Assembly (NCBI RefSeq): GCF_007752345.1
Contig: NZ_CP036299.1
Span: forward strand, 2,247,001-2,311,000
Direction: 5' to 3'
Source of the DNA: Planctopirus ephydatiae
GTDB lineage: Bacteria > Planctomycetota > Planctomycetia > Planctomycetales > Planctomycetaceae
Length of the DNA: 64,000 nucleotides
Part shown: in pieces, positions 37,693-40,411 of the stretch
How positions within the stretch are numbered: position 1 is the first letter of the stretch
Layout of the letters: each line of letters opens with the position of its first letter
Position numbers and translations under genes: made by a program
The notes under the pieces: generated by a model
What the model saw: the letters and a program-made list of their open reading frames with translations, nothing else
The model's database searches: none
Told to the model about the DNA's origin: nothing

Positions 37693-38988
37693 TCACGCCC
37701 ATATGGCACCTTCTGGAAATCGATAGGCCGCAATGGTCTCGGGAAGCATTTCGATGCTGTAACCCGGTGCCAAAGGAGCCTGGTAGCGCCCATTCTTCAT
37801 CGAGATCGGATGGACGAAATGTTCATGCAGATGATCGGCATGTTCGCAGAAGCGATTTTCCCAGCTACCGCTGATCGCAATAAAGTCGATCATCGAGAGA
37901 TGCTGCACGTATTCACATAACCCGACACCACCGGCATGGGGGCAAACGGGGATACCAAATTTTTCGGCCAGCAGCATGACCGCCAGAACTTCGTTCACAC
38001 CTCCCAGGCGGCAGCTATCAATCTGACAGATGCCAATGGCCCCCGCCTGCAAAAACTGTTTGAACATCACTCGATTCGCGCAATGCTCACCTGTGGCGAC
38101 GGCAATCGGATGCACTGCTTTGGCAATGGCCGCATGACCGAGAATATCATCCGGGCTGGTGGGTTCTTCGATGAACCAAGGGTGGAATTTCGCGAGTTCA
38201 CGTACCCAGTCGATCGCCGTTGAAACATCCCAGACCTGATTCGCATCGATCATGAGGCGGCGTTCAGGGCCAATCTCTTCGCGAATGATCGTTAAGCGGC
38301 GGAGATCGTCGTCGAGATTCCGTCCCACTTTGACTTTGAAGACTTCCCAGCCTTGTGCCAGATTGGAGCGACACAACTGTCTCAGTTTCTCATCTGAGTA
38401 TCCCAGCCAGCCGGCACTGGTCGTGTAGGCGGGATAGCCTGTGGCCAGCAACTGCTCGACACGCGCGGATTTGCCGGCCACTTTTCGTTCGAGACGTTCG
38501 ATGGCTTCAGCGGGTGTCAGCGCATCGGTCAGGTATCGGAAGTCGATACAGTTGACCAACTGTGCGGGAGTGAAGTCGGTGACGAGTTTCCAGAGGGGCT
38601 TCTGTTCGATTTTGGCCCAGAGATCCCAGAGCGCATTGACCAGAGCGGCCGTGGCGAGATGGATCACGCCTTTCTCTGGGCCCAGCCAGCGTAACTGGCT
38701 GTCACCCGTCAGTTCGCGCCAGAATTGGCCGGGAGCTTCGGTGAACTCGCTCAGATCTCGACCAATGAGGAGTTTGCCCAGCGATTCAATGGCCGCCACA
38801 CACAGTTCGTTTCCTCGACCGATGGTAAATGTCATGCCATGCCCCGCGGGGAGCGCTGCATCATCGGTTTTGAGAATTACATACGCGGCTGAATAGTCCG
38901 GATCCGGATTCATCGCGTCGGAACCATCCAGCAGACGCGAGGTGGGAAAACGGAGATCAATGGCCTGAATCCCGGAGAACTTGGGCAT
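37693..38988 (-). CDS. L-fuconate dehydratase (enolase superfamily)
   Basis: Dehydrates L-fuconate to 2-keto-3-deoxy-L-fuconate in L-fucose breakdown. GGGGAG lies seven nt before the ATG. The 431-aa length and sequence fit the FucD group of the mandelate racemase subgroup. Catalytic features are KVKVG (K-x-K base), metal ligands in MIDANQVWD, FIEEPTSPDD and VATGEHCANR, and the opposite-face His in CPHAGGVGL. GSWENRF follows. Mandelate racemase-like paralogues are possible, but the N-terminal DLRFPTSRLLDGSDAMNPDPDYSAAY is characteristic. No other fucose genes are near. Confidence 0.88.
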   Translation of the reverse strand: MPKFSGIQAIDLRFPTSRLLDGSDAMNPDPDYSAAYVILKTDDAALPAGHGMTFTIGRGNELCVAAIESLGKLLIGRDLSEFTEAPGQFWRELTGDSQLRWLGPEKGVIHLATAALVNALWDLWAKIEQKPLWKLVTDFTPAQLVNCIDFRYLTDALTPAEAIERLERKVAGKSARVEQLLATGYPAYTTSAGWLGYSDEKLRQLCRSNLAQGWEVFKVKVGRNLDDDLRRLTIIREEIGPERRLMIDANQVWDVSTAIDWVRELAKFHPWFIEEPTSPDDILGHAAIAKAVHPIAVATGEHCANRVMFKQFLQAGAIGICQIDSCRLGGVNEVLAVMLLAEKFGIPVCPHAGGVGLCEYVQHLSMIDFIAISGSWENRFCEHADHLHEHFVHPISMKNGRYQAPLAPGYSIEMLPETIAAYRFPEGAIWA

Positions 38989-39040: not shown

Positions 39041-40411
39041 CTACCATTTGGTGCGACCGGAACGCTCGAGTGAGAGAACTGAGCTGCCATTGCGGAAGAC
39101 GGTGACCGTCCCCGTGGATTGGCTGACCGTGATCGCCATGGCTTGTGTGTGAGCCGAGATGGCGGCTGCGGTTTGATGGCGTGCCCCCAGACCATGTGCC
39201 ACACTTCCCGAAGCGGATTTGGGAGTGAGGTAGGTTCCCGCAGAAAGCACAGTTCCGTCGCCCTGAATGATAAAGGCCCCGTCGATGAGGGCGAACTCCT
39301 TCATCGTTTCTGCCAGGCTCGGATCGAGGACATTTCGCAGTTGCCGGGCATAACCATGAAAAGGGTTAAGCACGAGTTGCTGTGAGTGCCTCAGTACCTG
39401 CCGGGAATCACCAATCACGAACAAGGCACCAATGGGGTGCGCTTCGCGACCTTCGGCGGCAATCTCGATCGCCAGAGTCAAGACGCGCAGCATGACAGCG
39501 GGACGTACGACATCCGCACCACGTCGATTTTTTTCTGAGAGCATCGCCCGAAAATGGACTTCCGGTTTGGTGACATTGATGCTGTCGAGCCGGCGACCAT
39601 CGGGGCCTGTCACACAGACCACGCTGTTTTTTTCGGTGAGTAAACCGCTGGATGCAGCCAACAAGAGCCCGAGATTGGCGCGATCCGCACGAGAAAGCGA
39701 TGCGTGTGCCACATCAAAAATATGCAGATCTTCCCGCTTATGATCGAACTCTTCAGAGTGTTGCGACGTAACCAGGAGCAAGCGGCCCTTGTAGTTGGCC
39801 AGTGCCTCCCACGGAACGTTTTCCACTCGCTCGACCGCCAGAAGCAAAGCCTGGGCGGCGAGGCTTTCTGTCAGCTGAATAGCAGTCTTCACCATGTTGA
39901 CAGTCAAGCGGGGAATGCTCGGCCCCCGGACGGGACGATTCTCAGGCTGAATACCGGCTTGCGTCATCAAGAGCAGATCGATGGCCTTGATGTCTTTGGC
40001 GTCAATCAGATTTTGTCGGAAGTCGGGACTTTTGAGCAGTTCGGCAAGAGCAGCGAGAACTTCCACATGTGTCTGCTGCAGTCGGCGCCCAATGACCAGG
40101 AGCACAATCAGTTGGACATTAACGCCGGCAGGCCCGCCATAATCGACGCGAGATTTGCTGCGACCGAGGACGATGCGGAAGTCGCCATCCCAGTCGATAA
40201 ATGCATGTGGTAATGCAAAGTCATTGGCCACAAGGGTTTGTGCGGCGGCCTCACGTTCCTCGATGGCTTCGAGAACATTTTCAGGATTGATTCCATCATC
40301 ATCCCAGTTGGCGGCCTGAACCAGAGCGCGGATCGCTCCCTGACGCGTTTTGGCAGTCAACTCGACAATCCGGATTCCACTGACCAGGTCTGCCAGATCC
40401 ACGATGATCAC
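39041..40411 (-). CDS. PTS EIIA (type 2)-like domain fused to a diadenylate cyclase (DisA_N/DAC) domain
   Basis: A 456-aa cytoplasmic fusion starting at a GTG at 40411. Residues about 5-150 resemble PTS EIIA-2 domains (the Fru/Ntr type), with the phosphorylatable H69 in DFALPHAFIDW and the helical DAKDIKAIDLLL end. Residues about 170-300 resemble the pyruvate-kinase alpha/beta-like module found before archaeal DAC domains. Residues about 335-446 form a DAC domain: I376-DGA-F for substrate and GLGA-R411-H412-Q413 for nucleotide. Canonical DAC proteins read R-H-R, so the third position differs here. The protein should make c-di-AMP and could be gated by EIIA phosphorylation. No DhaL/EI/HPr gene is adjacent. 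It lies 52 bp upstream of fucD on the same strand. Confidence 0.82.
   Translation of the reverse strand: MIIVDLADLVSGIRIVELTAKTRQGAIRALVQAANWDDDGINPENVLEAIEEREAAAQTLVANDFALPHAFIDWDGDFRIVLGRSKSRVDYGGPAGVNVQLIVLLVIGRRLQQTHVEVLAALAELLKSPDFRQNLIDAKDIKAIDLLLMTQAGIQPENRPVRGPSIPRLTVNMVKTAIQLTESLAAQALLLAVERVENVPWEALANYKGRLLLVTSQHSEEFDHKREDLHIFDVAHASLSRADRANLGLLLAASSGLLTEKNSVVCVTGPDGRRLDSINVTKPEVHFRAMLSEKNRRGADVVRPAVMLRVLTLAIEIAAEGREAHPIGALFVIGDSRQVLRHSQQLVLNPFHGYARQLRNVLDPSLAETMKEFALIDGAFIIQGDGTVLSAGTYLTPKSASGSVAHGLGARHQTAAAISAHTQAMAITVSQSTGTVTVFRNGSSVLSLERSGRTKW

Follow-up and report, generated by a model that had tools for sequence, protein, structure and literature searches.

Can the phosphotransferase system (PTS) adjust c-di-AMP from within the enzyme that makes it? 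The question is raised by a gene in the 64,000-nucleotide stretch of Planctopirus ephydatiae DNA analysed here (the window; NZ_CP036299.1, positions 2,247,001 to 2,311,000), whose predicted product joins a PTS EIIA domain to a diadenylate cyclase (DAC) domain. The signals that adjust c-di-AMP have been called largely unknown (PMC11323494), and a phospho-acceptor from a known relay, built into the cyclase itself, would supply a defined input for this nucleotide. We propose, at a probability of roughly 0.6, that the protein is a DacZ-type diadenylate cyclase gated by EI–HPr phosphotransfer to His69, through which PEP and nitrogen state would be passed on to c-di-AMP and probably to ion homeostasis.

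A predicted three-domain cyclase

The open reading frame given in the preliminary description was recovered, on the minus strand, which that description had omitted (Table 1). On this strand, 456 aa can be read from a GTG without a stop, the whole open frame comprising 476 codons, and plus-strand frame 1 across the same interval is interrupted by stops. In near relatives the gene begins three codons later, at the codon equivalent to residue 4, where the window has a GTG shortly after a GGGGG stretch. The true start is therefore likely to be the GTG at 40402, which would give a product of 453 aa (39041–40402).

Pfam supports the domain order first read from the letters, with EIIA, a middle module and DAC all scoring above their cut-offs, and a genome search for DAC put that domain at the same spot. 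The EIIA part aligns with the PtsN structures 3urr, 4gqx and 2a0j, and the best solved chains matching the DAC part are named diadenylate cyclase or CdaA. The middle module had been likened to pyruvate kinase, a comparison that stands as far as DacZ_P passes its cut-off; PK_C itself, in contrast, had no match in the window protein at E ≤ 0.001, and we infer that DacZ_P shares the PK_C fold. Among 27 fused proteins scanned at this threshold, the window protein and its near copies included, EIIA_2 and DAC were each found in all 27, DacZ_P in 24 and PK_C in four. Their 42 unfused homologues carry DAC (42/42) and mostly DacZ_P (40/42), and EIIA is absent from the five families listed for them. An AlphaFold2 model built on a shallow six-row alignment, limited to the window protein and rows from related loci, had a mean pLDDT of 41, too poor for any domain contact to be read from it.

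Table 1 Coordinates of the fusion gene, its predicted domains and residues, and related features (window coordinates unless a locus is named)
Feature	Coordinates	Strand	Details
EIIA–DacZ_P–DAC fusion gene	39041..40411	minus	456 aa as first read
PTS_EIIA_2 domain, residues 17–145	39977..40363	minus	Pfam 67.3 bits, cut-off 27
DacZ_P domain (PK_C-like middle module), residues 171–281	39569..39901	minus	Pfam 33.8 bits, cut-off 27.4
DAC domain (diadenylate cyclase), residues 317–443	39083..39463	minus	Pfam 84.2 bits, cut-off 27
Arg53, EIIA active-site arginine by alignment	40253..40255	minus	Arg in 26/28 fused rows; gap in truncated L002; Gly in L047
His69, predicted phosphorylation site, context FALPHAF	40205..40207	minus	His in 28/28 fused rows; lines up with the PH motif of PtsN
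His115, second EIIA active-site histidine by alignment	40067..40069	minus	His 16/28, Tyr 12/28
DGA motif, residues 377–379	39275..39283	minus	D, G and A each in 72/72 rows
RHQ motif, residues 411–413	39173..39181	minus	R411 and H412 in 72/72 rows; third residue variable
MR/MLE (enolase superfamily) gene	37693..38988	minus	52 bases downstream of the fusion gene, same strand
EIIA_2–Na_H_Exchanger	L089:1797-3488; L091:2117-3841		
EIIA_2–Na_H_Exchanger–TrkA_N	L092:3413-5740; L092:5759-8386		

Relationship to known cyclases and EIIA proteins

By its Pfam score and its DGA and RH residues, the C-terminal domain belongs to the DAC superfamily, and the PK_C-like domain ahead of it is the arrangement of DacZ/CdaZ, found likewise in Haloferax volcanii DacZ and Methanocaldococcus CdaZ. 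The window protein differs from haloarchaeal DacZ by its extra N-terminal EIIA and scores 124.6 bits against the 430 of the haloarchaeal DacZ equivalog NF041371. Closer in kind are the unfused planctomycete DacZ_P–DAC proteins, often about 310 aa long, which have the same two-domain core in the same phylum but no EIIA. A position outside the classical DisA, CdaA and CdaS types, as originally suggested, agrees with the scores: the DAC catalytic domain is common to DisA, CdaA, CdaS and CdaM, but the window protein falls far below all four cut-offs (40.5 against 201 for the DisA equivalog; 36.7 against 188.8 for the CdaA equivalog TIGR00159), and Pfam gives no further DisA domain. The N-terminal domain is a type 2 (fructose/Ntr) EIIA, resembling PtsN and fructose-type EIIA over PTS_EIIA_2 with alignable Arg, His and His; unlike these, it is part of a cyclase, and it stays below the equivalogs of PtsN (TIGR01419, 31.3 against 138.7) and FruA (TIGR00848, 59.9 against 103.5).

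Braun et al. (2019) united DacZ and DacY/CdaZ in one family that includes some bacteria, and their tree contains three Planctomycetales proteins; the available text has no mention of EIIA in this family, and "PTS" occurs in it 0 times (PMC6741144). The names DacZ_P and DacZ_T suggest that such proteins have already been sorted by Pfam curators. No published work on an EIIA–cyclase fusion was found in the literature searched, which did not cover catalogues of DAC domains; co-mentions of diadenylate cyclase with planctomycetes or with PTS/EIIA concerned, by their titles, Staphylococcus KdpD, LytTR and Streptococcus mutans.

Conservation of the predicted active sites

Residues were compared in an alignment of 28 fused and 44 unfused rows (72 in all). 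The fused rows include the window protein and its near copies L009, L002 and L001; L007 and L008, two copies of the window gene, were left out, as were L063 and L084, whose proteins are short. The truncated L048 and L085 are still among the 44 unfused rows and, together with the truncated L002, were omitted from the DAC tree and from separate fused (27-row) and unfused alignments. L048, from genome G133, may be a fused gene truncated by the contig end at which it begins.

In the alignment with PtsN 3urr, Arg53, His69 and His115 stand opposite an Arg and two His, and we take these three residues to form the EIIA active site. The phosphorylatable His69 proposed in the preliminary description would thus lie in a PtsN-like site. 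Pro68 is kept alongside His69 in 28/28 fused rows, and His69 is invariant also in the separate 27-row fused alignment. All 12 rows with Tyr at position 115 come from families f28 and f73. This replacement of the second active-site histidine would suit an EIIA that serves as a docking or oligomerisation module, bringing the cyclase to partners such as ion transporters or HPr while phosphorylation leaves the cyclase rate unaffected, and EIIA proteins are described as acting through protein–protein contact (PMC11808508, PMC4848567). The retention of His69 and Arg53, however, is that expected of a phospho-acceptor, and we consider pure docking unlikely.

In the cyclase domain, the DGA and RHQ motifs were found at the residues first assigned to them, and Ser430 is invariant as well (72/72 rows). 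The Gln in third place of the "RHR" motif had been thought capable of altering activity. Since this position varies, Gln413 is unremarkable and says little about activity: the fused rows have Q in 11, R in 14 and A in 3, and the unfused rows have W in 27/44 (27/42 without truncated L048 and L085) with ten other residues in the remainder. We therefore rejected Gln413 as an altered catalytic residue. The same Gln is what could be cited for a DAC domain that makes no c-di-AMP, being inactive or forming another product. We give this view hardly any credence: the third position varies across the whole family, none of the 72 rows departs from D, G, A, R, H or Ser430, and the genome of the window has no other DAC.

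Distribution and descent of the fusion

Whole-genome searches covered 391 genomes of the window's own phylum, with up to four candidates scored per genome. Matches spanning EIIA to the end of DAC were found in at least 22/391 genomes (at least 23 proteins from at least seven families), two of them beginning at residue 45 or 46, and in at least 6/35 genomes of the window's own family. The same domain order is therefore present in other planctomycetes, and its recurrence in so many genomes and families argues that the fusion is no assembly accident. A search of genome contigs gave six loci, all from metagenome-assembled planctomycetes ("Planctomyces sp.", "Schlesneria paludicola"), of which two are pieces from one isolate. 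Such patchy spread would also be expected of an EIIA carried as a passenger without present function, the fusion being kept by descent; His69, however, is retained down to about 30% overall identity and across at least seven families, which makes this reading very improbable.

In a tree of the DacZ_P–DAC part (69 rows), one clade (100/100) unites the four named relatives with the fused proteins from the window's family; its grouping with the fused proteins from f37 and f77 has modest support (90/86). The family's unfused enzymes belong to a distinct clade of 29 rows (100/100), together with unfused ones from other families of the class, and the fused side of the tree also contains 13 unfused rows from other families. 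Mapped as fused or unfused, the DAC tree calls for two changes, with a single change, and hence one origin of the fusion, still admissible. For the origin of the EIIA part, a tree with 20 of the 27 fused proteins gave three changes, again with one admissible, on long branches.

The genome of the window (one contig, 5.2 Mb) has a single DAC, the fused one, and within the family this holds for 5/6 genomes with the fusion, the window's included; in the sixth, G212, an unfused DacZ and a third DAC accompany the fused form. Unfused DacZ is present in most genomes of the window's family. In the other families, each of the 16 genomes with the fusion (16/16) has a further, higher-scoring DAC (138–146 bits). 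This pattern is consistent with the fused enzyme having replaced the ordinary DacZ in the lineage of the window, and it does not discriminate between transfer and an old paralogue that was retained.

PTS genes of the host genome

A link to phosphotransfer, as first suggested, is made plausible by the genes for EI and HPr in the window's genome. There, HPF, EIIA, HPr and EI genes form one same-strand run (locus L086), at a distance from the cyclase gene. Three EIIA_2 domains are encoded in this genome: that of the cyclase fusion, the free EIIA of L086 and that of an HTH_17–EIIA protein (L087).

PTS families were then counted in 50 chosen genomes, 22 with the fusion and 28 without, the window's own included. 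HPr and EIIA_2 were each found in all 50, and the EI N-domain in every genome except G272 (49); the two permease families searched, PTS_EIIC (PF02378) and PTS_IIB (PF02302), were each found in 0/50. In 14 control genomes, the same searches detected HPr in 7, EI in 7, EIIA_2 in 7, PF02378 in 7, PF02302 in 6 and HPr kinase in 3. Because PF02378 EIIC and PF02302 IIB are absent from the 50 genomes, the PTS of the window's genome looks regulatory and is probably of the nitrogen type, and sugar, initially named beside nitrogen as a possible input, becomes less likely. Presence of the PTS does not track the fusion, since the 28 fusion-less genomes carry PTS genes too (HPr 28/28, EI 27/28). PTS-Ntr genes in Planctomycetales are reported in a 2026 review, where the term c-di-AMP is found 0 times (PMC13104625).

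HPr kinase was considered as a second input and set aside, with 0/50 matches over the cut-off and five weak ones, in a search that may miss the gene. Bacillus subtilis has an HPr kinase gene, and the absence is weak evidence because the control search, which caught only 3/14, missed it there.

The HTH_17–EIIA_2 fusion (L087:3392-4099; G000:C1 near 4,009,400) is 235 aa long and, by its domains, a candidate PTS-switched DNA-binding protein. Its gene is adjoined by ORFs that look, by eye only, PIG-L/LmbE-like and PP2C-like.

Other EIIA fusions and ion-related genes

Five long EIIA-bearing ORFs, all in other genomes, were picked from the search list as a choice and not as a count. In four of the five, EIIA_2 is joined to Na_H_Exchanger, in two of these also with TrkA_N (Table 1). 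The fifth (L090:3173-5245) fuses EIIA_2 to a bacterial HCO3_cotransp domain (583 bits), and the Band_3_cyto profile matches the same stretch as EIIA. Fusion to cation/proton exchangers and to a bicarbonate transporter in relatives indicates that EIIA acts near ion transport. It would also fit a reverse flow of information, with DAC as the sensor and EIIA as the output to potassium transport, the nucleotide state in DacZ_P/DAC changing EIIA phosphorylation or binding. Against this stand the invariant DAC catalytic residues (72/72) and the status of the fused enzyme as the genome's only DAC, which together argue for real c-di-AMP synthesis. The N-terminal domains of DACs, moreover, are usually regarded as inputs. 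We hold reverse flow to be quite unlikely.

In the window's own genome, four TrkA_C matches lie in three open frames, whose products may be targets of c-di-AMP; a DHHA1 protein of 380 aa may be a phosphodiesterase.

Proposed mechanism

Based on these findings, we return to gating by phosphotransfer and propose a plausible route. First, phosphate from PEP would pass to EI, then to HPr, both encoded elsewhere in the genome, and from HPr to the cyclase, at His69. Depending on whether His69 carries phosphate, the packing of EIIA on DacZ_P/DAC, or the oligomerisation of DAC, would then change, and the altered packing or oligomerisation would set the output of c-di-AMP from two ATP. As a weak bet on the sign, the cyclase may be more active with unphosphorylated EIIA. 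The cyclase would be one output of a regulatory PTS, beside the free PtsN-like EIIA and the HTH–EIIA protein, and the physiological end would likely be potassium and pH balance.

Gating is favoured by the three domains above cut-off; by His69, Arg53 and, in 28/28 fused rows, DGA and RH; by the HPF–EIIA–HPr–EI run and the absence of EIIC and IIB; by the fusions of EIIA to ion transporters; by the unfused dacZ that precedes a run of PTS genes in G379; and by the single DAC in most fused genomes of the family. Against it count the distance of the gene from EI and HPr, a neighbourhood unshared across families, the restriction of dacZ–PTS adjacency to one of 58 loci, Tyr in place of His115 and a fusion that does not track the PTS. 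Precedents exist in trans. Phosphorylated EIIA-Ntr of Caulobacter is reported to bind SpoT and inhibit its hydrolase (PMC4848567), which likewise places a PTS EIIA on a second-messenger enzyme; there the two act in trans on (p)ppGpp, whereas here EIIA shares one chain with a c-di-AMP synthase. Unphosphorylated PtsN is reported to bind the K+/H+ antiporter YcgO (PMC11808508), and in many bacteria potassium and osmotic balance are described as being under c-di-AMP control (PMC7900238).

Because the only predicted c-di-AMP enzyme of this genome carries a built-in PTS phosphate-receiving domain, the arrangement suggests a direct route from metabolic state to c-di-AMP levels. We tentatively extend the proposal, at somewhat less than even odds, to an evolutionary one: in the window's lineage, the fused cyclase would have taken the place of the ordinary DacZ as the sole c-di-AMP synthase of the cell, with a permease-less PTS setting c-di-AMP in cis and joining PTS-Ntr and c-di-AMP as a metabolic switch of ion homeostasis. 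If so, two regulators known separately for potassium balance would be united in one polypeptide. Gating as such would tie PEP and nitrogen state to c-di-AMP and ion balance in planctomycetes.

Gene neighbourhood

No riboswitch or other known RNA was found in the window at Rfam gathering scores. The scan gave five promoter-like sites (shuffles 2.1, sd 1.6) and five terminator-like sites (shuffles 3.5, sd 2.0), both too weak to use. The MR/MLE gene downstream (Table 1) is possibly co-transcribed with the cyclase gene; it recurs only in L001 among the 19 loci compared and is not a conserved partner. None of the 19 loci revealed a neighbourhood conserved across families, and sharing is confined to close groups: L102 and L103 share a formyl transferase, L099 and L101 share AP_endonuc_2 and Cytochrom_C_2 genes, and the loci of family f28 share a gene block whose two tested ORFs have no Pfam match.

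At locus L056 (L056:1-5916, genome G379), an unfused dacZ lies upstream of genes for a PLP-decarboxylase, HPF, EIIA, HPr and EI, all on one strand. Among 58 loci, for most of which the flanks span just a few kb, this is the one case of dacZ beside PTS genes, and the linkage is an anecdote. Divergent from the cyclase gene, on the plus strand, is a 120-aa ORF (window:40756-41118) with no Pfam match; a related ORF occupies the same place in L001. In family f28, small ORFs (L093:4905-5273, L094:4970-5362 and L103:6777-7136) overlap the end of the fused DAC gene by a base or a few. The one scanned, in L093, has no Pfam match, and the small ORF is a possible partner of the fused cyclase.
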